Below, one piece after another: positions 49,397 to 64,000 of a DNA stretch of 64,000 bases. Position 1 is the stretch's first letter. Each line of letters begins with the position of its first letter. The position numbers and the translations under genes were made by a program. The notes beneath the pieces are model-generated. The model was given only the letters and a program-made list of their open reading frames with translations, was not told where the DNA came from and ran no database searches. This DNA comes from an uncultured Methanobrevibacter sp. (lineage in GTDB: Archaea; Methanobacteriota; Methanobacteria; Methanobacteriales; Methanobacteriaceae), in the NCBI GenBank assembly GCA_900320515.1, contig ONSJ01000005.1, positions 1 to 64,000 of the forward strand. Reading direction: 5' to 3'.

Positions 49397-49723
49397 TTAG
49401 CGAAACACTGATATAACTGACAGGGTCCACACCACCACTGTAACTATCAGCACAAATTTTCCGTGCTTCTTGGCCCTTGATGAATCCCTTGTGAGAAGGT
49501 AGATTCCTATAATCAAACCGATTAGAGGAATAAGAATCGCCATTACATATCCCACAACTATCGCTATGGTATAGTTCTTATCGCTGAGCTCGATATACTG
49601 TCGCCTGTTTTCCTGATATGTGTTTGTGGTTTTTTGAGGATTATCAATCTCGGCCCCGCAGTTTTTGCAGAATTTGGCCGCATCTATCAGTTCCTCACCG
49701 CATGCCGGACAATATTTGGTCAT
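49397..49723 (-). CDS. Small zinc-ribbon membrane protein
   Basis: 108 residues. An N-terminal zinc ribbon (YCPACGEELIDAAKFCKNCGAE), a polar linker, and two membrane helices (IVVGYVMAILIPLIGLIIGIYLL and FVLIVTVVVWTLSVISVF). Zinc-ribbon/membrane proteins of this type recur in this part of the window (54083-55150). Function unknown. Convergent with cpgS. Confidence 0.75.
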   Translation of the reverse strand: MTKYCPACGEELIDAAKFCKNCGAEIDNPQKTTNTYQENRRQYIELSDKNYTIAIVVGYVMAILIPLIGLIIGIYLLTRDSSRAKKHGKFVLIVTVVVWTLSVISVFR

Positions 49724-50708: not shown

Positions 50709-50731
50709 ATAATTAGCATACTGCTAATTAT
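50709..50731. terminator. Bidirectional terminator
   Basis: ATAATTAGCA (50709-50718) pairs with TGCTAATTAT (50722-50731) around TAC, between the convergent DUF2283-like gene and the next minus-strand gene, whose stop lies in the stem. Confidence 0.65.
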
Positions 50732-51294
50732 TCACCAAACAATTTTTCAATCAAATCTTCTTCATTTTTATAAAAGTTAAGCTTCAGTACTCTCTGCAGG
50801 GTATCGGGTGCTCCCAGAAGTTCCATTGCCTGATCCCATGGAATGAACACCTTTTTGGCATCCTGATTGTAGCAAAGCTCCAAAGTTTGGGGCAACTTTC
50901 CCTTACTTGAGTCAGTCAGTATTACTGTAGCGTCATCAATATTTTGATTCCTGTTGACGGATTCATCAGATACGATTTCCGCTATATTAAAATTAGTAGT
51001 TTCATCATCACCCATCAGATTATCAATCACTTTTTCATTATTTTCGATGGATAATTTGAAGATGTCACCGTCTATGAAATATACCTCGCCGACATCGCAT
51101 GTCACGTCAAGAAGTGAGCTGAATTCGTCGGCTTCGGGATAGATCTCTTCGGGTTCCTCGAATTCCGGAATCACATAGCCTGACCTGTCAACAAAGTCGG
51201 CCTCTCCGGCGATGATTTTCAAAAGGCGAATGATTTCCCTGTTCTGGTTTTCGATATTCTTATTGATTCTTATTAGCTCCTCTAGTTCAGACAT
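50728..51294 (-). CDS. Acidic protein with an N-terminal coiled coil
   Basis: 188 residues. A short coiled coil (MSELEELIRINKNIENQNREIIRLLKII), then an acidic linker and a mixed domain ending TLQRVLKLNFYKNEEDLIEKLFGE. The region TVILTDSSKGKLPQTLELCYNQDAKKVFIPWDQAMELLG may be a small beta barrel. Not recognised. Located between the toxin module and the SseB/helicase operon. Confidence 0.55.
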   Translation of the reverse strand: MSELEELIRINKNIENQNREIIRLLKIIAGEADFVDRSGYVIPEFEEPEEIYPEADEFSSLLDVTCDVGEVYFIDGDIFKLSIENNEKVIDNLMGDDETTNFNIAEIVSDESVNRNQNIDDATVILTDSSKGKLPQTLELCYNQDAKKVFIPWDQAMELLGAPDTLQRVLKLNFYKNEEDLIEKLFGE

Positions 51295-51551: not shown

Positions 51552-52457
51552 TCAGGATATCAAAAACATGTAATAGATTGTATCGCACAGCTTCTCGTCA
51601 TGGGCAAACTTCTCAAATCCTATGGAATATTTAAGAAGGGTGACCCTTGGAATGAGGACATTGTCGCTTTGCGGATTCAGGATTATCCCTTCCATGTCCT
51701 CTGAAAGCACAAAATTTACAAGCATGGCAAGGTTTACCACCTGAGAATACCTGAATTTGGTCGTCTCGACTTTCTTGATTTTATCCTCGCCTGAAAATAT
51801 TGTCGCATAGGTTCCTCCGACATTGTCGGTATACATCTGAGCCAGCGGCCCTGAGTCCATCATCGAGATGACTCCGTCCTTTGCCTTTGGGGAGAGATCG
51901 ACATCGCTCACCATCATCGTAAGAAGCCTTGATTTTGACATCACTTCAAAGAGCGCCTCGTAATCGCCGATGTTTTGAGGGTTTTCGATGAACCTTTCAA
52001 GCTCCTCGTTTCGGGTGTCCTTGAGTTTCTTGAGCTCGTCAACGGTATAGGCATTTGTCGAGTAGAAATTAGTCTTTGGAATGTTTTTTATTTCAAGAAT
52101 GAACTCCTTGGTGAACACATACTTTTCGGTTGCGGGATTGAGGACATATCCTTCAATGTCGCTGGTTTTCAATACATTCTGATAGAGCTCGAAGGAGTTC
52201 TGCATCAGCTCAAGGTCATCCTCATCTTTGAAAAACTTTCTGAACTCATCAGCATCCGTGAAAAGAGGAGTCAGCTTCAGACCGCTGTCATCCTCATAGA
52301 TTATGAAATTAAGACCGAATTCATCCCTTTTTGCCGGAATATACAGGTTTGAGTATCTAAACTCATGAATGAGCCTCAGGGTCAAATCCTTTGTAAGCCT
52401 ATTGTCGTTTGAATATATGTCTTCTATTACTGTCCTTAGGTGTTTGTGGTTAGTCAT
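51552..52457 (-). CDS. SseB-like protein, copy 1
   Basis: 301 residues from ATG 52457, which overlaps the helicase stop (ATGACTAA); the longer upstream start lies within the helicase gene. Two SseB-like halves: LKLTPLFTDADEFRKFFKDED with IEGYVLNPATEKYVF, and YATIFSGEDK with MEGIILNPQSDNVLIPR. The signature GhhhNPxxxxhhh(P/S)R recurs in four more proteins in this window. SseB-type domains occur in secretion and immunity loci; the function here is unknown. Last gene of the AAA/helicase operon. Confidence 0.75.
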   Translation of the reverse strand: MTNHKHLRTVIEDIYSNDNRLTKDLTLRLIHEFRYSNLYIPAKRDEFGLNFIIYEDDSGLKLTPLFTDADEFRKFFKDEDDLELMQNSFELYQNVLKTSDIEGYVLNPATEKYVFTKEFILEIKNIPKTNFYSTNAYTVDELKKLKDTRNEELERFIENPQNIGDYEALFEVMSKSRLLTMMVSDVDLSPKAKDGVISMMDSGPLAQMYTDNVGGTYATIFSGEDKIKKVETTKFRYSQVVNLAMLVNFVLSEDMEGIILNPQSDNVLIPRVTLLKYSIGFEKFAHDEKLCDTIYYMFLIS

Positions 52458-54027
52458 CAAAGTTATTTTGTCTGAAAAGATATTTAAATGAATCCGGCAG
52501 GAACCTGTCATTTTTCACGAACTCGGAAATTCTGGAATCTATGAAATAGGTGACGCAGTAGTCGTCCTCAAACCTCATTCCCCTTCCGTAGGTCTGAACC
52601 AGGGCAAGGGAGGTCTTGTAGTCATACCAGTCCCCGTCGGCGTTTGCCCTCATCATTATCTGCTTGTCTCCCAAATCGGGATATGGCAATTTATAGATTA
52701 TCTGAAATCTGCACAAATCTCCCGGCAGGTCAACGCCCTCATTCATCGAAGGCGAAACAAGGACGAGAGGTTCTGTTGAGCCTTTGAATTTCTCAAGCTG
52801 CTCGGCACGGTTTTGGGTGTTGTGCTCCATCAGCCTTGAGTCATTGAGGTTGTCTATCAGGTAGTCCTTGCAGGATTTGCTTACGGTGTGTATGATTCCC
52901 TTTTCGTTTTTATGCCTTTCCAAAATGGACCTTATGGCGTCAAGGGTTTTTGGGGCATTGTCGTTTATGCATTTGCGGGACATGTCATACTCTCCAAGGG
53001 ATTTGACGGGATTTCTACTGAGGTCAAATGGCGATTTTCGCCTTATCGGATAGATTTCATCCTCGCTTATCCCCAGGCATTTTGAAAAGAATTTCCAGTC
53101 AAGGACGGATGCGCTCATGAATATGCAGACCTCACCGTACTCAAGAAGGGTGTTTTTGGCATACCTGTCAACCTTCAGGGGCTTGAACTCGAGAATCTCA
53201 TAGTCACTGTTGTAGTCAAAAACCCAGCTGTAGGGGTCATAGGCGATGTTTTCTATGAACCGGTTGCAGTCGCTTATCTCCCTTTTAATGAATGCGATCT
53301 TTTCCGCCAAATGGGGCTTTTTGACATCCTTGATTCTTTCAAGCTCCTTGAGATATTTCTCCCGCACCTCCTGAATGAACATGAGCCAGACGTCATAGTC
53401 CCCGTTTTCAAGCTCATAAAGCATTGCGTCCGTAATGTCCAATTTCAGATAATTTGAAAGGTCACTTAATGAAAACTCAAGCTTCAGCTGGCTCATTATG
53501 ACATTTTCAAGGTTGTGGGCCTCATCGCAAATCAGGAGTTGCCTCTTTTTAAAATCTCCGACATAGTTGAGTTCCAGAAACATGTAATGGTAGTTTGAGA
53601 TGACGGTTTTCGAATTGAGTGCCCTGTGCTTTTGGATGTAGTAGTCGCAGTCTGTTTTCGGGTTTTCGCAGGCCTCCTCTCCTGCTATGCATCTTCCCTC
53701 GTCGCATGTAAGCTCCATGTCCTTTCGGCACTGGAAGTTTCCCCTTCCCTTCACAAGGCAGATATTGCTGAAATCCTCGATGTACTGGTCCTGCAGCTGC
53801 TTTGTGACGGTCAGTATATATGAATTCTCATATATTGATGAGAGCGTGGCGGCGATGGCGGATTTTCCGGTTCCCGTTCCCGCCTCTAGGACTATATATC
53901 GATAGCCCCGGCTGACTGCATCGACTATCTCAGAAATGGTTTCAAGCTGGTCCGGCCTCGGGCTTTTGAAGGGGAAATGCCTTTCGGCCTCCGGCCTGAT
54001 TTTCGAATATTCGCTGTACTGCCACAT
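52450..54027 (-). CDS. DinG/XPD-family Fe-S helicase
   Basis: 525 residues. SPRPDQLETISEIV Q-motif-like start, Walker A EAGTGTGKSAI (~49-55), four cysteines of an Fe-S domain between ~100 and 135 (FQCRKDMELTCDEGRCIAGEEACENPKTDC), DEAH box ICDEAHN (~167), and C-terminal motifs VLVSPSMNEGVDLPGD and QTYGRGMRFEDD. A 5'-to-3' DNA helicase of superfamily 2. In this operon it may process nucleic acid in defence or repair. It shares translation coupling with an SseB-like gene. Confidence 0.9.
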   Translation of the reverse strand: MWQYSEYSKIRPEAERHFPFKSPRPDQLETISEIVDAVSRGYRYIVLEAGTGTGKSAIAATLSSIYENSYILTVTKQLQDQYIEDFSNICLVKGRGNFQCRKDMELTCDEGRCIAGEEACENPKTDCDYYIQKHRALNSKTVISNYHYMFLELNYVGDFKKRQLLICDEAHNLENVIMSQLKLEFSLSDLSNYLKLDITDAMLYELENGDYDVWLMFIQEVREKYLKELERIKDVKKPHLAEKIAFIKREISDCNRFIENIAYDPYSWVFDYNSDYEILEFKPLKVDRYAKNTLLEYGEVCIFMSASVLDWKFFSKCLGISEDEIYPIRRKSPFDLSRNPVKSLGEYDMSRKCINDNAPKTLDAIRSILERHKNEKGIIHTVSKSCKDYLIDNLNDSRLMEHNTQNRAEQLEKFKGSTEPLVLVSPSMNEGVDLPGDLCRFQIIYKLPYPDLGDKQIMMRANADGDWYDYKTSLALVQTYGRGMRFEDDYCVTYFIDSRISEFVKNDRFLPDSFKYLFRQNNFDD

Positions 54028-54082: not shown

Positions 54083-55150
54083 CTAATCATAGTCCCTGAC
54101 GGAATCGATGAGATTATCCATCTCGCCTATAAGGTCGTCGACATCCTCTTGTGTGGTTATGTTGTCGCTTACGATAAGCTCGCTTGAAAGGCGGTCCATC
54201 TTGTCTATGATTTCATTGAGAATCTTTATTTTCACTTCGATTTCAGAGGCGATTCTCTCGGAGTATTCATCGGCAAGGCTTATCATGGTATATGCGGAAT
54301 CCCTGTGCTTTTCAAAGAGCTTTGCTGACTTGTCAACGCCTGATATGAATCTGGTGTATGTCAATTGCGGCGGCTCGAAGCGCTTGGCTATGAGGTCACG
54401 CGCTGACTTCTGCTTTGACTGGAAGCGCTTGTTCAGGTCATCCAGCTGGAGCTGGTAGTCAAGGTATTCTGGAATGATGTTGGGCCTTTGCGCAACGCTT
54501 TCGACCTTTGGAGTTTCCTTTATTTCCTTTTTCGGCTTTTTTTTAGGAAGCTCAGGCTTGACGTCTGAGTCTCTGCCAATAAGCTTGTGGAGTGCAAAGC
54601 CTATCGCAAGGGTCGGAATCTCAAGGATAAGACCCAGAATTATTGCGGTGAAAAGGACCATTGTATTGTATGTCACAAGTCCCACTGCCAGTCCGAAAAG
54701 GAATACGATAAATGAGATTATCTTTGTCTTGGAAAGGACATAACCTCCGTTTCGGGTCTGCCAGAAAAACATCAGATGCTTCAGGTCCACAAGAAGTCCG
54801 TAATCGTTGTATCTGATCTTGTTGATTGGCGGGTCTCCCTTGAATCTGTGGAGTATGAATCCAAGAAGGAAGGTTATGAGTCCGGATACTGTCCCCAAAA
54901 GCAATGCCACCGGATGGGGTGATGCGGCAAAGGAGAAGAGTGTGATGAAGAGAAACAATGCAATTCCTGAAAGCTTTGACTTTGAAAGCATGCTTCCCTG
55001 AGGATAGTTCCAGTAGAAAAGCTTATGAATCGCATCATCCTTGGGGGCTGCAAGCTCTGTGGCCCTTGTGAAAGTGCTGCATTTGCATGACGGGCAGAAG
55101 TTTGCCCCGTCGTCAACCTCATTTCCGCAGTTGTTACATATCTTTGACAT
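54083..55150 (-). CDS. Zinc-ribbon, four-helix membrane protein with a coiled-coil tail
   Basis: 355 residues. Zinc ribbon with C5, C8, C19 and C22, then two pairs of membrane helices (~58-100 and ~140-190), each preceded by a similar sequence (SKSKLSGIALFLFITLFSFA; SKTKIISFIVFLFGLAVGL), i.e. an internal repeat. A Lys/Pro linker and a helical C-terminus (~220-355) follow, of the XpaC/coiled-coil sort. It starts 2 bases after the AAA gene stop. It could anchor the AAA complex to the membrane. Confidence 0.7.
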   Translation of the reverse strand: MSKICNNCGNEVDDGANFCPSCKCSTFTRATELAAPKDDAIHKLFYWNYPQGSMLSKSKLSGIALFLFITLFSFAASPHPVALLLGTVSGLITFLLGFILHRFKGDPPINKIRYNDYGLLVDLKHLMFFWQTRNGGYVLSKTKIISFIVFLFGLAVGLVTYNTMVLFTAIILGLILEIPTLAIGFALHKLIGRDSDVKPELPKKKPKKEIKETPKVESVAQRPNIIPEYLDYQLQLDDLNKRFQSKQKSARDLIAKRFEPPQLTYTRFISGVDKSAKLFEKHRDSAYTMISLADEYSERIASEIEVKIKILNEIIDKMDRLSSELIVSDNITTQEDVDDLIGEMDNLIDSVRDYD

Positions 55151-55152
55151 AT

Positions 55153-56607
55153 CTATTCCTCAACTAAAAAATCCTCATATGTTAGCGTGTTCAGTTCCTC
55201 GTCGGTTATGTCTGTCTGTGGAGCGAGCCTGTTTGCCTGGGCGGTTATCACCTCTTCAAAGAAGTTCCTCACTGCCCTTCCGTTTGCGAAGTTGTCCGAT
55301 TTGTGCTCGCACATCCTTTCAAAGTACTGCCTCAGGTATTCCTTGGCTGCATCGTCGGGGGTTAGGTTGGCCTCGTCGCACATCAGCATGAAAATGTCGT
55401 AGAGCTCCTCTGCGGTGTAGTCCTCGAAGTAGATGAACTTGTTGAACCTTGACTCGAGACCGGGATTTGAGTGCAGGAAGCGCTCCATCAGCGCAGGATA
55501 TCCTGCAACGATGACGATCAAATCGTCACGGTTATCCTCCATGGCCTTAAGCAGAGTGTCGATGGCTTCCTTTCCGTAGTCGTTTTCGGATGTTGACGCA
55601 AGGGAATATGCCTCGTCGATAAAGAGTATTCCTCCCATTGCCTCATCGATTACTCCTTTTGTCTTTATTGCGGTCTGGCCGACGTATCCTCCAACAAGGC
55701 CTGACCTGTCGGTTTCGATGAGATGGCCCTTTGACAGCAATCCAATCTCATGATAGATTTTTGATAAAAGCCTTGCAACGGTTGTCTTTCCGGTTCCGGG
55801 GTTTCCGCTGAATACCAGATGAAGGCTCATTGCAGGCTGCTTTATGCCCCTTTCCTCCCTCAGCTTTCTTATCTGAACAAGGTTTATCAGTGAGTTGACA
55901 TCCTTTTTCACCTTTTCAAGGCCTATGAGCCTGTTGAGCTCATCGAGATATTCCTCAAGGGTGTGTGACTCTTCCTCACTGGGAGCGTCAAGGCCCTTCG
56001 GTATCCTGCATTCGGCACCGTCATCCTCAATGAGGTAGTCGCCGAGGCGATTTTCGAGCCTCTCGATATAATCGCAGTACTTTTCATAGACTTCGGGATT
56101 GAGCTCGCCGTCAACGGTCAAAAAGAAGTTTCCAAGAAACCTGTATGAGTCGAAAAGCTCGTTGCATGAGCGAACCCCTGTCATGTCGAACTGCCTTGCA
56201 AAAAGGTCAAGCTCATGAAGGCACTCGAATGATGCCGGCATCTCGTCGATTTCGGCATCTGCAAGCTTCATGATGTCCTCCTTTGTATAATAGGAAATCA
56301 GAAGCTCGTTTATGAAGTTGAGCTCGTTGTCTGTAATGACGCCGTCTCCAAGGCCAAGGAAGCTGAAGTACCTGAAAAGGTCATCGAGAACGACGACCTC
56401 AAGGGGCGCGTTCTGCTGGCTGATTTTCGGACAGTGCTCTTTCAGCAAATCTATATCCAATGTCCTGATTAAAAACAGCACACCTGAAAGATGGCTTTTG
56501 AGATAGTCAACCCCAAGCTTTTCGGTTTTTGAATTGCAGTTTGGACAGGTCATCTTTGAGTTGTCCAAAACCTTACCGCATTTTGTGCAAATAGTCCACT
56601 CCAACAT
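55153..56607 (-). CDS. CbxX/SpoVK-type AAA+ ATPase with zinc ribbon and TerB-like region
   Basis: 484 residues. Zinc ribbon (C7, C10, C21, C24), a middle helical region with FLGLGDGVITDNELNFINELL that resembles a TerB-like calcium/metal-binding fold, then the AAA domain with Walker A FSGNPGTGKTTVARLL (~266), GGYVGQTAIKTKGVIDEA, Walker B GGILFIDEAYSL (~326) and ESRFNKFIYF. Relatives act in type VII secretion (EccA), Rubisco activation and sporulation as protein-remodelling motors. Second gene of the SseB-AAA-membrane-helicase-SseB operon. Confidence 0.88.
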   Translation of the reverse strand: MLEWTICTKCGKVLDNSKMTCPNCNSKTEKLGVDYLKSHLSGVLFLIRTLDIDLLKEHCPKISQQNAPLEVVVLDDLFRYFSFLGLGDGVITDNELNFINELLISYYTKEDIMKLADAEIDEMPASFECLHELDLFARQFDMTGVRSCNELFDSYRFLGNFFLTVDGELNPEVYEKYCDYIERLENRLGDYLIEDDGAECRIPKGLDAPSEEESHTLEEYLDELNRLIGLEKVKKDVNSLINLVQIRKLREERGIKQPAMSLHLVFSGNPGTGKTTVARLLSKIYHEIGLLSKGHLIETDRSGLVGGYVGQTAIKTKGVIDEAMGGILFIDEAYSLASTSENDYGKEAIDTLLKAMEDNRDDLIVIVAGYPALMERFLHSNPGLESRFNKFIYFEDYTAEELYDIFMLMCDEANLTPDDAAKEYLRQYFERMCEHKSDNFANGRAVRNFFEEVITAQANRLAPQTDITDEELNTLTYEDFLVEE

Positions 56608-56655: not shown

Positions 56656-57558
56656 TTATTCTATCGGAAATGCATATCTGGTGGCTTCGGCAAAATCGGT
56701 GTTGACCAGATCATCGTTTAGAAGTCGCAGTATGACCTGTCTTGGAACGTAATAGTCGTCGGTTCCGGGATTTATGATTATTCCGTCAAGGTCGTTTGAA
56801 AGTAGGAAGTGGAATACTGAATACTTGTTTGTCACCTGCACATAGTAGAAGAACTCCAGGTCCTCATGAAAGCTCACTATCGCATCGGTGTCCGTGTAGA
56901 CGGTTCCGTAGTGGTCCCTTCCGCTGTTTTTGGTGAATAATGTGAACGTGTCCGCCTCGTTTCTGTCGATGACACCGTCATGTGAAAACTCGCTCAGGTC
57001 CTTCTCGCTTACAACGACGTTTAGAAGGACTGAGTCAAGAAGAATCTTGGAGAGCTTATCGAACTTGTTGAAGTTGGAATCCTTGGAGATGAATCTTTTC
57101 AATTTTTCGTTTTTCTCGCTTAGGGCAATGTCTCTAAGTTTAATTCCGTCAAAGGCATTGTCGCTTTCAACCTTGCGGGTCAGCGGAATCTTGTTTAGAA
57201 CAACATTGTCTATGCAGAACTCATCGCTTCCAACGTCAATGAGAATTCCGTCAAAGCCGAAATCGTTGACCATCTTGATGTAGTATGCAATCTCATTTGG
57301 AAATGATTCGAATTCATCGGAATACTTCTTCAGCTCATCATTGCTTGTAAACAAGGGAATCAGACTTGTTCCGTCATCAACCTCTATATTGGGAAAGCTC
57401 AACTTCTCCCCGTCAAAAACAACCGGAATCAGCAACTCACAAACCTTAAGCTCCATCAAAAGGTTGAGGTACATGTCCTCGGGAGGCTTTGTGTTGTTTT
57501 TGTAAAAATTGCTAATCTCTGAAATCGATGATTTGAGATACTTGTTTGTAACAGTCAT
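56656..57558 (-). CDS. SseB-like protein, copy 2
   Basis: 300 residues, two SseB-like halves: TSLIPLFTSNDELKKYSDEF with FDGILIDVGSDEFCI, and YGTVYTDTD with LDGIIINPGTDDYYVPRQVI. Central region LRDIALSEKNEKLKRFI matches the same segment in copies 1 and 4 (LKDTRNEELERFI, LRDSMDNAELEDFL). First gene of the operon; the AAA ATPase follows after 48 bases. Divergent from the winged-helix gene at 57683, which could regulate it. Confidence 0.75.
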   Translation of the reverse strand: MTVTNKYLKSSISEISNFYKNNTKPPEDMYLNLLMELKVCELLIPVVFDGEKLSFPNIEVDDGTSLIPLFTSNDELKKYSDEFESFPNEIAYYIKMVNDFGFDGILIDVGSDEFCIDNVVLNKIPLTRKVESDNAFDGIKLRDIALSEKNEKLKRFISKDSNFNKFDKLSKILLDSVLLNVVVSEKDLSEFSHDGVIDRNEADTFTLFTKNSGRDHYGTVYTDTDAIVSFHEDLEFFYYVQVTNKYSVFHFLLSNDLDGIIINPGTDDYYVPRQVILRLLNDDLVNTDFAEATRYAFPIE

Positions 57559-57682: not shown

Positions 57683-57982
57683 ATGAAAATCAAGCCCACA
57701 GAAGACGAGATATGGGGAAATATCGGATACATCAAGATTTCGCAGTCACGCTACAAGACCCTCAAATGCCTCAGCAGAGAAAACCTCATGCCGACAGAAA
57801 TTTCCAAAAGGACAAGGCTGACTTCCGCCCAAGTTTCAGTGGCCCTCAAGGACATGAAAAAGAAAAGGATTGTCAGATGCATGAACGAAGAGGCCGCAAA
57901 GGGCAGGATTTACCAGTGCACCGAATTGGGTTTAATGATTATTGAAACACTTGAGAAAACCAGCTTCAATCCCGAAGACTAG
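57683..57982 (+). CDS. Small winged-helix regulator, paralog of 33141-33401
   Basis: 99 residues: MPTEISKRTRLTSAQVSVALKDMKKKRIVRCMNEEAAKGRIYQCTELG, a compact wHTH with a basic wing. Starts about 125 bases from, and divergent to, the SseB/AAA operon. The 3' end overlaps the next gene by 4 bases, convergent. A local regulator of the operon is the simplest reading. Confidence 0.85.
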   Translation: MKIKPTEDEIWGNIGYIKISQSRYKTLKCLSRENLMPTEISKRTRLTSAQVSVALKDMKKKRIVRCMNEEAAKGRIYQCTELGLMIIETLEKTSFNPED

Positions 57983-58686
57983 TCAAGAACCTCACGTCCG
58001 CAGTCCGGACAGAAAACGGAATCAGGATCTATTTTTGCTCCGCAGTTTGTGCAGTAGACGTCATCGCTGTATATGACTGCCTTTCTTGCCTCAAGCTCCT
58101 CGGCTGAAATTTCACCCTGCTCAAAGAGATTCTGCAGTTCCAGAAGGGCGTCAATCTCATCATAGTCCTGGTTTTCGATGTTGTCCTCAAGGATTTCCTT
58201 AAGGGGCACCGCATTGTTCTCGTTTATTTCAAAGATGATTTCATCATCATCTGCGGTGGTGATTTTGAATGTTTTTTTGGACCAGCTTCCCTCATCTATT
58301 TCTATTTCAATCATCTCGGAGTAGGGAATTTCCAAATCTGTCTTATCTATTGTGATTCGGTCATGGTGAAGTATGAGGTCGGTGCCGATGGTCTTGTCAT
58401 CCTCCCTGATGTTGATCCATACCTTGCGCTCGGTGAATATGATTTCCTTTTGCCTTCTGATTGATGCAAGCCTGTGGTTTATGGAGTCAACGGAACCTTC
58501 AAACTCTTCAATGAGCTCTTCAGTGATTTCATCCTCATTGATGTCTATGTTTTTTGCCTTCAAAAACTTTAAGAATACCTTGTTTGGAGAACCCATGATG
58601 TTGAGAAGGTCATGCTCCTCCAGAAGCTCCTTGTTCCTGTCAAGGGTGTCGAATGAGGAATTCTTGAAAATGTTTTTAAGCTCCAT
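57979..58686 (-). CDS. PH-like/SHOCT/zinc-ribbon protein
   Basis: 235 residues. N-terminal helices, then a beta-rich part (TDLILHHDRITIDKTDLEIPYSEMIEIEI) that looks like a bacterial PH-type domain. A SHOCT-like segment follows (LLELQNLFEQGEISAEELEARKAVIYS), then a C-terminal zinc ribbon (YCTNCGAKIDPDSVFCPDCGREV). SHOCT and PH domains link to membrane and oligomer assembly in stress proteins. No catalytic motif seen. Confidence 0.75.
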   Translation of the reverse strand: MELKNIFKNSSFDTLDRNKELLEEHDLLNIMGSPNKVFLKFLKAKNIDINEDEITEELIEEFEGSVDSINHRLASIRRQKEIIFTERKVWINIREDDKTIGTDLILHHDRITIDKTDLEIPYSEMIEIEIDEGSWSKKTFKITTADDDEIIFEINENNAVPLKEILEDNIENQDYDEIDALLELQNLFEQGEISAEELEARKAVIYSDDVYCTNCGAKIDPDSVFCPDCGREVLD

Positions 58687-58723: not shown

Positions 58724-59608
58724 TCATGAAATCACTTCGGCAATGAGATAATCCTGCATGAAGACAAAGAGTATCCTAGCCCTTGTCCTTTCCCCAAACG
58801 TGCCCCAGATTTCACTTGCTGATTTTGCCTCATCAATCATGGTGTATGTGCTGTTTGCAACGTATCCCACGGTTTTTGCGTTGAACTCGACCCGTATGGC
58901 ATTGCTGTCATGCTCATTATCGGGCTCCTTTACCAAATCAACTATTGCTCCCTTTTCAGTCGGTGCCAAGTAGCCGTAGTGGTTGCGCCCGGCAATGCAC
59001 ACAAGAGGGTTTCTTGTCTCATCAATGATTTTAGACTGGCTTTCAAACTCATCCACCTTATCGTACTGCCGGTTTGCAAGCATGTTGCAGATGTAGGTTT
59101 CGCGCTTTTTTCCCATCAGCGCAAGGATGCGGGCCTTTGTTCTGAAGAATTCACATCTGTCATCCTCATCCCCGGTCAGCTTCAGAGCCTGGTTTAGCTT
59201 ATCCAGGGCTGATTGATAGTCCTGTGAATACTTGTCCTGCCAGGCCATCCTTTCAAGAAGCCTTGCCTTGTTGTCTTTTATATACTGGGCGTCCGTATTG
59301 CCAAGGGCCAAATCATAATACCTGAGGGCCTCATCATACCTGCCCATATCCTCAAGGATGATTGCCTTGACGTTGAGGACTTTCCAGTGCTTAGAGTATT
59401 CAAGGGCCCTGTTTATCACATTAAGGGCATCCTGATACTGGCCGTTTTCTCGAAGAGCCCATGCCTCCGCCCTCAATTGATGGGCTTTTGAAACCCTGTT
59501 GGGCTTTTGCTCTTCCTCCTCATCCTGAAGGTATCCCATGTACGGAATGTCCGGGACACCTACATGGTCTCCCCAGTCGGCGGGGTCTCCCACATGCCAT
59601 TCATCCAT
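58724..59608 (-). CDS. TPR protein with a C-terminal HIRAN domain
   Basis: 294 residues from ATG 59608 (AGGTGA is placed for it; the GTG at 59617 overlaps that site). Tetratricopeptide repeats at ~40-180 (AWALRENGQYQDALNVINRALEYS, AIILEDMGRYDEALRYYDLALGN). The HIRAN domain follows at ~205-270: CIAGRNHYGYLAPTEKGAIVDLVKEPDNEHDSNAIRV. HIRAN domains bind 3' ends of single-stranded DNA in helicases such as HLTF. Here it is joined to a scaffold rather than a helicase. Begins 14 bases after a VapB-like gene. Confidence 0.85.
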   Translation of the reverse strand: MDEWHVGDPADWGDHVGVPDIPYMGYLQDEEEEQKPNRVSKAHQLRAEAWALRENGQYQDALNVINRALEYSKHWKVLNVKAIILEDMGRYDEALRYYDLALGNTDAQYIKDNKARLLERMAWQDKYSQDYQSALDKLNQALKLTGDEDDRCEFFRTKARILALMGKKRETYICNMLANRQYDKVDEFESQSKIIDETRNPLVCIAGRNHYGYLAPTEKGAIVDLVKEPDNEHDSNAIRVEFNAKTVGYVANSTYTMIDEAKSASEIWGTFGERTRARILFVFMQDYLIAEVIS

Positions 59609-59622
59609 TATTCTCACCTGAA

Positions 59623-59841: not shown

Positions 59842-60237
59842 CTAAATTGCTGAAATAACATCATATTTTCCAATTTTTTTAAAACCGCCATCAAATGAAA
59901 CAATCCTATTGATACCCATACTCATCATTGTCTGAATAATAGTGCAATCACTGTAATTAATGGAATTATTGAACCAACCATTAATCTCCAAAGATTTCAA
60001 ATAATCTTCATCAGATAATTGGATGACTATATTGTTTACATGTAAATCATCCCAAAGTTGTTTTACATCATCCTTTTTTCCAACAGACCGATTTAATGTT
60101 TCAACAAGAACGGTCGTATTTACCACAGTCGATTCATCAGCATAATTGAGATAATTCTCAATTTCTATAGCATCTTCATGATTATCATCTTTTTTATCCA
60201 TCAAACCGATGAAATAACCACTATCCAAAAAAATCAT
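59842..60237 (-). CDS. PIN-domain ribonuclease toxin (VapC-like), second
   Basis: 131 residues from ATG 60237, with GGGAGG upstream. PIN residues: MIFLDSGYFIG (Asp5), VVNTTVLVETLN (Glu), SINYSDCTII (Asp) and SFDGGF (Asp). Follows the 91-residue antitoxin by 15 bases. Family and length as VapC, a probable tRNA or mRNA cleaving toxin. Confidence 0.85.
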   Translation of the reverse strand: MIFLDSGYFIGLMDKKDDNHEDAIEIENYLNYADESTVVNTTVLVETLNRSVGKKDDVKQLWDDLHVNNIVIQLSDEDYLKSLEINGWFNNSINYSDCTIIQTMMSMGINRIVSFDGGFKKIGKYDVISAI

Positions 60238-60252
60238 GAATAAACCTCCCAA

Positions 60253-60528
60253 CTATTCATCAGAATCACTCCACCTATCTATAAAAACACTGAAATCATG
60301 TTTTTTAATTGGAATTCCATTTTTCCTATCCTTTTCTAAAGCTTTTCTACTCATTTCAAGCAATTCTTCTTTGGTGTATTCAGGAGGTTCGAAATAATTA
60401 TCAGTGAACAGTTCCCTTCTAAGATACCTATCAATCAGCTCTTCAACAGAGATGTTTAATATATCAGATTTTTCTTTTAATTGTGCCTCTATCATTTCAT
60501 CACCAATAACAGTTTTTTTATCAGACAT
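60253..60528 (-). CDS. Antitoxin-like protein before VapC
   Basis: 91 residues; N-terminal IEAQLKEKSDILNISVEELIDRYLRREL is a ribbon-helix-helix-type dimerisation segment, followed by an acidic, likely flexible C-terminus that would wrap the PIN toxin. First gene of the antitoxin-toxin-antitoxin run. Confidence 0.7.
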   Translation of the reverse strand: MSDKKTVIGDEMIEAQLKEKSDILNISVEELIDRYLRRELFTDNYFEPPEYTKEELLEMSRKALEKDRKNGIPIKKHDFSVFIDRWSDSDE

Positions 60529-60881: not shown

Positions 60882-60986
60882 TCATTCTTCCCATTCGTCA
60901 AAGTCAAAGTCCGGGTCGAATCCGCAGTTTTCGCAGTACGGTTCGAAATCGGACAGTACAGATCCGCATCTTGGACATGTCTTCAT
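60882..60986 (-). CDS. 34-residue zinc-ribbon microprotein
   Basis: ATG 60986 to TGA 60882-60884: MKTCPRCGSVLSDFEPYCEN, then CG and an acidic end (FDPDFDFDEWEE). Two CxxC pairs for one zinc ion. GGTGATGAT precedes the start and overlaps the previous gene's stop by design (8-base gap). Last gene of the operon. Confidence 0.6.
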   Translation of the reverse strand: MKTCPRCGSVLSDFEPYCENCGFDPDFDFDEWEE

Positions 60987-60994
60987 ATCATCAC

Positions 60995-61108
60995 CTATCC
61001 GTAGTTTTCGCCTACCCATCCGTAGTTGACATCCGGTGAGCAGCCGCAGTATTCGCATTCTTCACAATAATCGTCGTTTAACTCTCCGCAGTTAGGGCAT
61101 TCCCACAT
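60995..61108 (-). CDS. 37-residue cysteine-rich zinc-ribbon microprotein
   Basis: ATG 61108 (AGGTGA upstream) to TAG 60995-60997: MWECPNCGELNDDYCEECEY, then CGCS and a Gly/Tyr end. Seven cysteines in 24 residues suggest tight zinc binding. Starts 9 bases after the 61-residue gene. Confidence 0.6.
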   Translation of the reverse strand: MWECPNCGELNDDYCEECEYCGCSPDVNYGWVGENYG

Positions 61109-61117
61109 GTTTTCACC

Positions 61118-61303
61118 TCACTCATAGAAGTCCGGGTCGACATAGCCCAGCTCTTCGGCTTCGTCGAAGTTGAGGTTGTCCTCGTCAAACTCATCGTCGT
61201 CATATATTCCCCAGTCCGGGCTGTCTGAGAGGTCTGAACCGCATTCCTCGCATGTCACCCTTGTGGGACTGTTCAAGTGTCCGCAAACGTCGCATGTTAT
61301 CAT
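61118..61303 (-). CDS. 61-residue zinc-ribbon protein with an acidic tail
   Basis: Starts MITCDVCGHLNSPTRVTCEE, then CG, one zinc ribbon, followed by a strongly acidic tail (DDDEFDEDNLNFDEAEELG). Similar in design to the two smaller proteins that follow, and so probably a duplicated family of adaptor microproteins. Confidence 0.7.
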   Translation of the reverse strand: MITCDVCGHLNSPTRVTCEECGSDLSDSPDWGIYDDDEFDEDNLNFDEAEELGYVDPDFYE

Positions 61304-61315
61304 TTTATCACCTTT

Positions 61316-61927
61316 TTACACATCATATTCGTGATAATCCGGCTTCAAAGCCATGTTTTCAAGGTCAAGATGGTAGAACCTTTCACGGTTGTCTGAAACC
61401 CTGAAATAGACTATCACGTCAATCTCGTCAATCAGCCTATATTCGGGAGGCCATGTCCGGTACTCCGTCTTGTGTCCGTATCTGCATTCTATGAACTCAA
61501 GTCCGGTTTTTCTTACAAGCTCCTGAAACTCGGGGCTTTTCAAAAGACCGTCATGGTTGTAGTAGCTGGAGCTGTCGCAGAATACCCTTTCGATGTTTTT
61601 ATCTTTCGGGCTGAAGCAGAACTCATCCACCGTCCTCACGTATTCGTTTTCACGTGTGACGGCGAAAACGTACTCGTCAAGTGCAGACCTTGCCTCCATC
61701 CTTGTGCAGTCCCTGGCCTTGAGAAAGCCTTCAAGCTTTGCCCTGAGAGCCTGCCTTTGGACGGGGGTTATGAACATTGACTCCAGTATGTCGTCCAGCT
61801 CATCATTGCTGTAATTGCGATTGCCTGAATCCTCCTCAAGCCCTTCCCATGAAAGATGGGCTCCGCAGTGGCTACAGTATGGGTCTCCTTCCATAATCAT
61901 CGATCCGCAGTCGGGACATGTATGCAT
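61316..61927 (-). CDS. Zinc-ribbon protein with an uncharacterised domain
   Basis: 203 residues. Ribbon TCPDCGSMIMEGDPYCSHCGAHL at the start, then a helical part (YSNDELDDILESMFITPVQRQALRAKLEGFL) and a beta-rich end (FIECRYGHKTEYRTWPPEY, DEIDVIVYFRVSD). Cys at ~120 lies alone. Unrecognised; common ribbon architecture with the neighbours suggests a shared partner. Confidence 0.65.
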   Translation of the reverse strand: MHTCPDCGSMIMEGDPYCSHCGAHLSWEGLEEDSGNRNYSNDELDDILESMFITPVQRQALRAKLEGFLKARDCTRMEARSALDEYVFAVTRENEYVRTVDEFCFSPKDKNIERVFCDSSSYYNHDGLLKSPEFQELVRKTGLEFIECRYGHKTEYRTWPPEYRLIDEIDVIVYFRVSDNRERFYHLDLENMALKPDYHEYDV

Positions 61928-61971
61928 ATCATCACCTGATTAGAACTTTGTTATTAAACTATTAATAAATG

Positions 61972-62436
61972 TTATTCATCATCCAGAAAATACTGCCTTA
62001 GAAATTCCATCTCAAGAAAGCACACCTCGCCCATGGGATTTATGACAAATCCGTCGGCGCCGCCCTCAAGGAGGGTGAGCTGCTGCTTCCATGAGTTGGT
62101 AAGGGGCGTGAGCTCATCAAAGCATTTCCTGAACTCATCCATATCTGTGCACAGGGCAATGTACTGCCTGTTGTTCGGTCCCGGAAGCTGGACGAATCCC
62201 ATGTTGTCCTCATCCATGCTTGCCGGAAGAATCAGCGATGAGTTTTCAAGCTCGCAGGCCATGAGGGACGCCTCAAGGTCGATGCATCTGCATTCGCATT
62301 CAAGCTCATCGATTTTTTTAAACAGTCTTCTCATCTCCTCATGGGAAATGCCCTCAAGCATTTCCCTATAGCCGATTCCGCATTCCGGACAGTCCTCGTC
62401 AAGATGAATCAGACCGCCGCATTTTGCACATCTCAT
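61972..62436 (-). CDS. Zinc-knuckle/SseB-like hybrid, copy 3
   Basis: 154 residues. N-terminal zinc knuckle (CAKCGGLIHLDEDCPECG), a helical segment (CEC pattern), then one SseB-like half: YIALCTDMDEFRKCFDEL and GADGFVINPMGEVCFLEMEFL. This joins the zinc-ribbon microproteins and the SseB family in one polypeptide. 2 bases from the 96-residue gene. Confidence 0.7.
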   Translation of the reverse strand: MRCAKCGGLIHLDEDCPECGIGYREMLEGISHEEMRRLFKKIDELECECRCIDLEASLMACELENSSLILPASMDEDNMGFVQLPGPNNRQYIALCTDMDEFRKCFDELTPLTNSWKQQLTLLEGGADGFVINPMGEVCFLEMEFLRQYFLDDE

Positions 62437-62438
62437 GC

Positions 62439-62729
62439 TTACACCAGCTGAAAAAAGATTTCCTTGAAGTTCCTGTAGAGCTCGCCGTAGAGAATCAGGG
62501 CCTTGTCAAAGGTCGGAGTCTCCTCTTTGAGGTAATCCTCAGGAACATGCTTTTGGTAGTCTGGAAGATACTTCTCCATCAGCCCAAGCATTTCATCATG
62601 GAACTCATCGATTTCTTTCTCGTCGGCCTTTTCAAAGTCGAAATGAACGTCTAGGCGCTCGTGGTGCCTTATCATCCTTTCAAAGTCGCAGACTATTTCC
62701 TGTATTGTAAGTTTGATTTTTTTAGTCAT
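62439..62729 (-). CDS. 96-residue helical protein coupled to SseB-like genes
   Basis: Helical, acidic (TIQEIVCDFERMIRHHERLDVHFDFEKADEKEIDEFHDEML). Start overlaps the upstream SseB-like stop by 1 base (TAATG) and it ends 2 bases before the next start, so it is translationally coupled. No known family. Confidence 0.6.
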   Translation of the reverse strand: MTKKIKLTIQEIVCDFERMIRHHERLDVHFDFEKADEKEIDEFHDEMLGLMEKYLPDYQKHVPEDYLKEETPTFDKALILYGELYRNFKEIFFQLV

Positions 62730-63646
62730 TATGCTTCCTCCTTAATCAAGAACATGTGCTTTATTGCAGTGTTCAGTTTCTGGTCGTTGCAGAACTCTTC
62801 AAGAACCGGCCAGTACTCCAAAAGCACGTCACGGGAAATCATGACGTTTTCCGCATTGGGATTGATTATTATCCCGTCAAGCCCGTCGTTTAGGGCATAG
62901 TTTGTAAGCTGTGAGAAGTTTACAATCTGTGAGTACTTGTTGAGGTCGGTTGTGACATTTGAGATTTTGCCTTCCGATGTGTATACTGTGGCGTACTTTC
63001 CTCCGATATCGTCAAGGTAGAGAAATCCCATCGGCTCATCCTCCATGTTAATGATGCCGTCCTCGGCAAATTCGGATAGATCCTGCCTTGAAACCATGAG
63101 GGTGAGAAGGGTTGAGTCGGAAATCCTGGCAAAGAGCTCCTCATACCTGCCGATGTTTGAGGAGTCATTAAGGAAATCCTCAAGCTCTGCGTTGTCCATG
63201 GAATCCCTTAAACCCTTAAGCTCAAATGAAGTGTATGCACCCTCTGAAGGATAGTCATGCTGCGGAAGATGCCTGATTGACTCGAAAATCTCCCTTATGA
63301 TGATGAAGCCCTCGCTTTGGGGGTTTATGACGAATCCGTCTAGGTCCCCTGACTCCACCATTGTCTTGTAGACCTCAAAATCGCATGCCTCAGACGGGCA
63401 TTCACCCGTGCGGTCGAATTTCCTGAACTCGTCCATGTCGGTGAAAAGCAATCCCATCCTTCGCCCGTCATGGTCAAACACCACCATCTGATGGAGGGTT
63501 GAAACGTTGCCCGCAATTATAAGGCAGGAATGCTGGAGCTCGCCCATAAGCATGGTGAGGGTTTCGTCCGAAACGTCCTCCCCCATTGACTCGAATTCCT
63601 GCAAGTGCCTTCTCAAGTTATCGTGATTTACAAAATATTTCCTCAT
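62729..63646 (-). CDS. SseB-like protein, copy 4
   Basis: 305 residues, two SseB-like halves: MGLLFTDMDEFRKFDRT with LDGFVINPQSEGFIIIR, and YATVYTSEGK with LDGIIINPNAENVMISRDVL. The central segment (FARISDSTLLTLMVSRQDLSEF) aligns with copies 1 and 2 and with the partial copy at 63657. Overlaps the following gene by 1 base. Confidence 0.75.
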   Translation of the reverse strand: MRKYFVNHDNLRRHLQEFESMGEDVSDETLTMLMGELQHSCLIIAGNVSTLHQMVVFDHDGRRMGLLFTDMDEFRKFDRTGECPSEACDFEVYKTMVESGDLDGFVINPQSEGFIIIREIFESIRHLPQHDYPSEGAYTSFELKGLRDSMDNAELEDFLNDSSNIGRYEELFARISDSTLLTLMVSRQDLSEFAEDGIINMEDEPMGFLYLDDIGGKYATVYTSEGKISNVTTDLNKYSQIVNFSQLTNYALNDGLDGIIINPNAENVMISRDVLLEYWPVLEEFCNDQKLNTAIKHMFLIKEEA

Positions 63647-63656
63647 TTTTACACCT

Positions 63657-64000
63657 CTAAAGTTTGAATATTGATTCGTGTGAAGTCCTTAATCTTTCAT
63701 CATCGCAGTGAGCCTCGATGAGCTCATACTTGTCCACCAAAAGGGCTCTTGACATGTATGCCTCGCCCCCTGATGTATTTATAGTAAGTCCCATAAGTCC
63801 GAACTTGAGGACATGGTCGACTGCATCCTTGAAGTTGACGACTGCTGCATACTGGCCGCCTTCATGGTCCTTTGCGGTTGATAGGGTTATCTCCTTGCCG
63901 TATCCGTAGGGGCTTAGCCTGAAGAGATTGAATACCTCGTCAAACACGTCAAATTCTTCGGTTTCAGTTACGTCAATCGAATAGAGCATTGTTGACTTTC
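63657..64000 (-). CDS. SseB-like protein, copy 5 (C-terminal part, cut by window end)
   Basis: The open frame continues past ATG 63989 to the window end (Lys-Ser-Thr before that Met), and KSTMLYSIDV aligns with DSTLLTLMVS in copy 4. So it is the C-terminal half of a longer protein. Ends with GLMGLTINTSGGEAYMSR, a degenerate form of the GhhINPxxxxxhxxR motif. First seen gene of the operon. Confidence 0.6.
   Translation of the reverse strand, partial: KSTMLYSIDVTETEEFDVFDEVFNLFRLSPYGYGKEITLSTAKDHEGGQYAAVVNFKDAVDHVLKFGLMGLTINTSGGEAYMSRALLVDKYELIEAHCDDERLRTSHESIFKL

Follow-up and report, generated by a model that had tools for sequence, protein, structure and literature searches.

The stretch of DNA analysed here (the window) comprised the initial 64 kb of contig G000:C37 (120.5 kb) from an uncultured Methanobrevibacter sp., and the element in question was a run of eight tightly packed minus-strand genes reaching from position 60882 to past 64000. 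These genes are the variable end of a larger conserved island at approximately 49.4-69.4 kb of the contig. The best explanation, held at a probability of roughly 0.4, is a protein-remodelling island, accessory and lineage-restricted, that Methanobrevibacter-like methanogens carry; the eight genes would be its variable end, rich in adaptors, and an AAA+ ATPase would act as dedicated chaperone. The anatomy of the island and the selection on its smallest genes were read directly from a reference set of 67 congeneric genomes (the source genome and 66 others of one genus); from these we infer how it may work.

All open reading frames (ORFs) of the operon described in the original prediction were recovered on the minus strand. 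They are listed with the evidence for each (pN/pS, ratio of non-synonymous to synonymous polymorphism).

60882..60986, minus: Zn34, 34-residue zinc-ribbon microprotein MKTCPRCGSVLSDFEPYCENCGFDPDFDFDEWEE with Shine-Dalgarno sequence GGTGATGAT (orthologue search; pN/pS)
60995..61108, minus: Zn37, 37-residue zinc-ribbon microprotein with C-terminal tag DVNYGWVGENYG (orthologues; pN/pS)
61118..61303, minus: Zn61, 61-residue zinc-ribbon microprotein, MITCxVCGxLN...CxxCGSDLSDSxDW plus a variable acidic tail (alignment; pN/pS)
61316..61927, minus: Zn203, 203 residues, zinc ribbon plus a C-terminal domain of approximately 160 residues, family not assigned (weak Pfam Zn_ribbon match)
61972..62436, minus: Zn-SseB, 154 residues, zinc knuckle (C3, C6, C16, C19) fused to one SseB domain (PF07179, 2.2e-6)
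62439..62729, minus: Hel96, 96 residues, putatively helical, partner of SseB-type genes (neighbourhood in relatives)
62729..63646, minus: tandem-SseB protein, 305 residues (PF07179 twice, 6.9e-13)
63657..64562, minus, cut by the window at 64000: divergent tandem-SseB protein, 301 residues, GTG start (profile and hhalign)

Intergenic distances were 8, 9, 12, 44, 2, -1 and 10 bases, and the tight packing and the four zinc-ribbon proteins of 34, 37, 61 and 203 residues stood as predicted. The ORF cut by the window edge was the C-terminal half of the 301-residue gene, which extends to 64562; the operon was correctly said to run off the window. On the extended contig the run continued to at least 65700, within the larger island, and the operon start lies further upstream than first placed, at least at 65700. 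ORFs of the CxxC...CxxC type were clustered, 5 of the 19 in 84 kb falling within 1.6 kb. A GGTGA-type Shine-Dalgarno sequence was present near the ATG of each small ORF. Five zinc-ribbon genes had a similar start region in common (repeat family D2), as expected of duplicated genes.

Maps of approximately 20 related islands, and of others, revealed an identical core and a changing periphery. The core comprised AAA+, XPD/DinG-type helicase, tandem-SseB, zinc-ribbon membrane, SHOCT/zinc-ribbon and winged helix-turn-helix (wHTH) proteins; zinc-ribbon microproteins, TPR proteins and further SseB proteins made up the periphery. In the window these parts were as follows.

58724..59617, minus: TPR-HIRAN protein, periphery (Pfam TPR and HIRAN; recurs in islands of relatives)
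57979..58686, minus: SHOCT/zinc-ribbon protein, 235 residues, core (Zn_Ribbon_1 3.6e-8, above cut-off; SHOCT 2e-5, below)
57683..57982, plus: wHTH regulator-like protein, 99 residues, core (weak Pfam MarR/ArsR-type match; position conserved)
56656..57558, minus: tandem-SseB protein, 300 residues, core (PF07179, 1.9e-13)
55153..56607, minus: AAA+ ATPase with N-terminal zinc ribbon, 484 residues, core (AAA 4e-18; AAA_lid_6 4.2e-20)
54083..55150, minus: zinc-ribbon membrane protein, 355 residues, core (Zn_Ribbon_1 4.9e-6; hydrophobic segments by sequence reading)
52450..54027, minus: XPD/DinG-type helicase, 525 residues, core (Helicase_C_2 1.5e-18; DEAD_2 5.8e-7; DinG model 1e-73)
51552..52457, minus: tandem-SseB protein, 301 residues, core (PF07179, 1.7e-13; 60-83% identity in relatives)
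50728..51294, minus: 188-residue border protein without convincing family (adjoins the core in most islands)
49397..49723, minus: 108-residue zinc-ribbon membrane protein, border (Pfam; adjoins the core in most islands)

The 355-residue membrane protein was conserved across related islands, and SHOCT/zinc-ribbon orthologues (58-67%) were found in several. A cysteine-rich stretch in the helicase suggests an iron-sulfur cluster; a sequence search of the PDB with this protein returned no match at 1e-8.

The AAA+ protein belongs to the SpoVK/CbbX/EccA clade and is not SpoVK, CbbX or EccA proper. Scores against the NCBIfam models were 306 bits for SpoVK (equivalog cut-off 423), 255 for CbbX (459) and 250 for EccA (467), all below cut-off, and the closest solved structures were CbbX (3.1e-64) and EccA1. 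The AAA and AAA_lid_6 domains, aromatic pore loop, sensor-1 GY and sensor-2 arginine of the clade were all found, together with its arginine finger region and variable N-terminal domain. Walker A and B, the pore loop YVGQTAIKT, the GY of sensor-1 and NPGLESRF were invariant among 22 orthologues. Unlike the named members, the island protein carries an N-terminal zinc ribbon and a different N-terminal region, and it is encoded among SseB and helicase genes instead of genes for spores, Rubisco or ESX. According to a published analysis, characterised members of the clade act as dedicated chaperones, each with a narrow range of targets and with variable N-domains for recruitment (PMC10659427).

Zn34, Zn37 and Zn61 are genuine genes under strong protein-level selection. 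Pooled pairwise pN/pS in the true frame was 0.16 for Zn61 (7 sequences), 0.26 for Zn37 (5 sequences) and 0.18 for Zn34 (8 sequences), and the annotated frame alone combined purifying selection with an absence of internal stops. Other frames gave values of 1.1-2.4, bar one reverse frame with common third positions, which gave 0.27-0.42 but was interrupted by stops. Matches were obtained in 50/67 congeneric genomes for Zn61 (E<=1e-3), 35/67 for Zn37 and 25/67 for Zn34 (E<=1e-5). Approximately 20 of the 25 Zn34 matches were 66-85% identical across near-full length, mostly at other genomic sites; an early suspicion from the island maps that Zn34 had no orthologues was overturned by this whole-genome search. 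In the Zn61 alignment the cysteines and GSDLSDSxDW were invariant or nearly so, and Zn37 ended in a conserved aromatic/glycine motif, GWVGENYG, with no acidic tract. Going by this conservation, GSDLSDSPDW (Zn61) and GWVGENYG (Zn37) would be the best binding-site candidates outside the zinc ribbons.

Since some weak Zn61 and Zn37 matches are mere zinc ribbons, strong-match counts were used for association with the core (tallied by hand; kinship of genomes ignored). Zn61 (E<=1e-9) was present in 32/41 genomes with the full-length AAA+ gene versus 9/26 without (Fisher p 7e-4). Zn37 (E<=1e-8) was present in 11/41 versus 0/26 (Fisher p 5e-3), all 11 of its genomes thus having the AAA+ core. Shared ancestry inflates such p-values, and recurrent adjacency in rearranged islands is therefore the stronger argument. 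Here the co-occurrence looked for in relatives was found: Zn61 was followed directly by Zn37 in 10 genomes (G000, G020, G021, G024, G050, G055, G059, G060, G063 and G064); Zn61, Zn203 and Zn-SseB were intact at locus L051 in the order of the window; and at L050 Zn-SseB, Hel96, Zn61, Zn203, TPR-HIRAN and AAA+ genes lay close together in a row. Hel96 occurred in 7/67 genomes only, each time adjoining an SseB-type gene. In approximately 23 of the 32 genomes that have both Zn61 and the full-length AAA+ gene, no more than 20 kb separated Zn61 from the AAA+ gene or from a tandem-SseB gene.

Approximately 41/67 congeneric genomes had the full-length AAA+ gene, as did a single genome from another genus. 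At E<=1e-60, AAA+ matches, paralogues included, were present in 2/17 genera of the family, and the tandem-SseB profile had members in 2/20 genera of the phylum. This narrow genus-level and incomplete within-genus presence marks an accessory, lineage-restricted system. The locus was not described in the literature searched; its part families are known, and their combination was not found there.

The three SseB-like genes predicted for the operon were all substantiated. PF07179 matched above the curated cut-off (21 bits) at 62729-63646, 61972-62436, 51552-52457 and 56656-57558, and every such match in the genome fell within the 51.6-63.6 kb part of this contig. Pfam gave no match for the gene cut by the window (63657-64562). 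It matched the profile of tandem-SseB relatives (4.8e-9 and 1.5e-8; hhalign probability 98.6%), and its assignment as the third SseB-like gene is therefore correct. The zinc-knuckle/SseB fusion was likewise upheld, its four cysteines being invariant across 6 genomes. All 38 aligned tandem-SseB relatives matched PF07179 at E<=0.01. In E. coli SseB the N-terminal domain is followed by a separate C-terminal Pfam domain. That domain was not found in the tandem-SseB proteins, the second half of which matched the N-terminal PF07179 model again. A scan of genome contigs with the 305-residue protein yielded one further locus (L015, uncultured Methanobrevibacter).

The AlphaFold model of the 305-residue protein was confident (predicted local distance difference test score, pLDDT, 91.9). 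Foldseek placed Plasmodium Tic22 first and Anabaena Tic22 ninth (E 0.011-0.16; template-modelling score, TM, 0.17-0.24), and single-domain TTHA0547 was matched with probability 1.00 (TM 0.65 by target); no match reached E<=0.001. TTHA0547 was again the top match for the Zn-SseB fusion, the model of which was moderate (pLDDT 69). In both searches one chain from the AAA motor complex Ycf2-FtsHi (8xqw_Q) appeared at low probability. Searching PDB sequences with the tandem-SseB profile gave chance-level matches only. The island proteins resemble the SseB family in sequence, and the fold search ranked Tic22 and TTHA0547 foremost; they differ in that most carry two tandem SseB domains, several are encoded per locus, and some are fused to a zinc knuckle or to PRiA4_ORF3. 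The translocon protein SseB of Salmonella is taken here to be a different protein from E. coli SseB, the namesake of PF07179. A comparative study, which cites the Salmonella protein, proposes a Tic22-like peptide-chaperone role for SseB (PMC9503650); the ranking of Tic22 and TTHA0547 agrees with this.

On the protein-remodelling reading, the AAA+ protein would remodel one client or complex, and the SseB/Tic22-fold proteins would bind extended peptides and pass them on. Zinc ribbons, and TPRs, would serve as exchangeable docking modules, with Zn61, Zn37 and Zn34 as minimal adaptors or tags recognised by short motifs (GSDLSDSPDW, GWVGENYG). An adaptor role, as first proposed for the microproteins, is plausible. 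Because a helicase is part of the core, the client may be a nucleic-acid-bound complex. If species differ in client or trigger, a stable core with varying adaptors is what one would expect to see. The SseB domains are placed beside the AAA+ motor of a client-specific chaperone clade, which provides a concrete hypothesis of SseB function.

Several points weigh against this reading. The client, contacts and activity of the AAA+ protein are what we infer, and the Tic22 matches were weak (best E 0.011; TM 0.17-0.24). The Fisher tests disregard genome relatedness. Zn34 is mostly encoded elsewhere and, among the loci examined, adjoins Zn37 only here and in G033; approximately 9 genomes have Zn61-like genes but not the full AAA+ gene. 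The tie between microproteins and core is thus not a strict one. Finally, the helicase and a TPR-cold-shock protein upstream suit a role in nucleic-acid conflict at least equally well. A more specific form of the reading is doubtful: an archaeal AAA+ system, not previously described, would use interchangeable zinc-ribbon adaptors of 34-61 residues to steer a motor of SpoVK/CbbX type and an Fe-S-type helicase, the adaptors presenting short peptide tags to SseB/Tic22-fold readers. If this were true, adaptor swapping would retarget the motor. What had been a loosely drawn cluster of ORFs, SseB-like or with zinc ribbons, is now a defined, testable system in most species of a gut methanogen group. 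Its core genes are named, and it has conserved peptide motifs and conserved microproteins 34-61 residues long.

A conflict or defence role was judged nearly as likely as the chaperone reading. The island would then act against viruses or mobile elements: helicase, HIRAN-TPR, TPR-cold-shock and zinc-ribbon proteins would detect foreign nucleic acid or process it, the response would be regulated by AAA+ and SseB proteins, and the rapidly changing periphery would reflect an arms race. This agrees with the accessory distribution of the full-length AAA+ gene, the highly variable periphery and the nearby HsdS-like, HsdR-like and PIN-domain genes. A PADLOC model covered the TPR-cold-shock protein from end to end (2.8e-71), and the top match of the helicase was the CAS-IV-A-associated DinG model (1e-73), a likeness to type IV-A CRISPR systems. 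No Cas match besides DinG was found among 19 island and flank proteins, CRISPR arrays not being specifically searched for. PADLOC run on the core and operon gave only the DinG, TPR and weak generic AAA+ matches, and so no known anti-phage system; SseB, SHOCT and zinc-ribbon membrane proteins had none. Nor did the core contain a recognisable nuclease effector, and it lay at recurring borders with 60-80% identity, unlike patchy transfer. Viral contigs held no relatives of the core tandem-SseB protein or Zn61, the only two tried. A viral origin was rejected on the same searches, PHROGs giving only weak zinc-ribbon matches.

A service to the cell surface, with envelope or exported proteins handled via the zinc-ribbon membrane proteins, is unlikely. 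Such proteins occur in the core and at the border, the core also contains the SHOCT/zinc-ribbon protein, and the clade offers precedents in SpoVK-MurG and the EccA of type VII secretion (PMC10659427). However, neither a secretion channel nor a cell-wall enzyme was recognised among the scanned island proteins, and the core helicase fits poorly.

The suggestion that the microproteins are DNA mimics, blocking restriction or other DNA-binding enzymes, fared worse and is very improbable. Restriction-like genes are nearby, the isoelectric point (pI) of Zn34, Zn37 and Zn61 is approximately 4.05, and the Zn61 tail is 45% Asp/Glu, exceeding every 38-residue stretch of 43 control proteins. Acidic tails had been attributed to the microproteins generally; that of Zn61 is indeed acidic, whereas its length ranges from approximately 9 to 32 residues among relatives (nearly gone in L046), and the tail of Zn37 is not acidic. 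At the sequence level, conservation thus lies in the cysteines and GSDLSDSxDW of Zn61 and in the aromatic tag of Zn37, not in tail length. The genome is also rich in acidic proteins: 40% of window control genes have a pI <5, and the entire operon is acidic. An origin of the small ORFs by chance or from decay of genes, for which only their shortness speaks, is negligibly probable given purifying selection in the true frame only, wide conservation and good ribosome-binding sites.

Among described microproteins, those of the C(P)XCG zinc-finger class in Haloferax volcanii have roles in stress, swarming and biofilm formation (PMC6562870, PMC10716476, PMC11241148), and 5/14 haloarchaeal members are zinc-free (PMC11241148). 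Zn34, Zn37 and Zn61 are likewise archaeal, <70 residues long and equipped with two CxxC(G) motifs, with zinc binding predicted. They differ in their family-specific conserved tails and in lying in an operon with SseB genes beside an AAA+/helicase core.

Many congeneric genomes encode, at other sites, a widely conserved zinc-ribbon protein of approximately 84 residues whose N-terminus is hydrophobic (L068:773-1027; also L069, L070, L072, L075 and L076). It ended in a tag of the Zn37 type, GW[LIV]GE(N/E)Y. With this tag common to both proteins, a common reader may exist. Full-length relatives of Zn203 were present in G039, G064 and G010, and a paralogue on contig C63 of the source genome. There, a second cluster (L005) combined this paralogue with zinc-ribbon proteins, one TPR and one SHOCT-like protein, and a small gene of wHTH-like type. 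Several genomes without the full-length AAA+ gene carried paralogous AAA+ proteins of approximately 520-585 residues, with an N-terminal zinc ribbon in most copies; these loci (L094-L098, L101 and L102) had a conserved zinc-motif neighbour of 184-186 residues and no SseB genes.

Upstream of the 301-residue gene the island continued as follows.

64543-65700: TPR/cold-shock protein
upstream of the TPR/cold-shock gene: 294-residue protein, SseB-like N-terminal half (hhalign 92.7%) plus PRiA4_ORF3 (6.6e-26)
66782-69391 (L006:10783-13392): 869-residue protein in the upstream part of the island

The 869-residue protein had an N-terminal RN[KR]IHD-type motif, a zinc ribbon and repeats of approximately 50 residues that looked helix-turn-helix-like; it matched no Pfam family. 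A HEPN domain, considered on account of the conserved RN[KR]IHD/RKKIHD motif, was without Pfam support even at E=10. Downstream of the eight genes, a 350-bp AT-rich gap (G+C content, GC, 0.23) was followed by a PIN-domain gene and a small partner gene (59842-60528), between the operon and the TPR-HIRAN gene. The pair is probably a toxin-antitoxin system, and the PIN gene, with its low GC (0.30), looks as if it had been recently inserted. Beyond the island lay HsdS-like (717 residues) and HsdR-like (1166 residues) genes (G000:C37:72560-78219; L004:8560-14219). Two motifs, a zinc ribbon and one of HExxH-like type (HELSHF), were present in the HsdR-like protein, and the two genes look like an unusual restriction-related pair.

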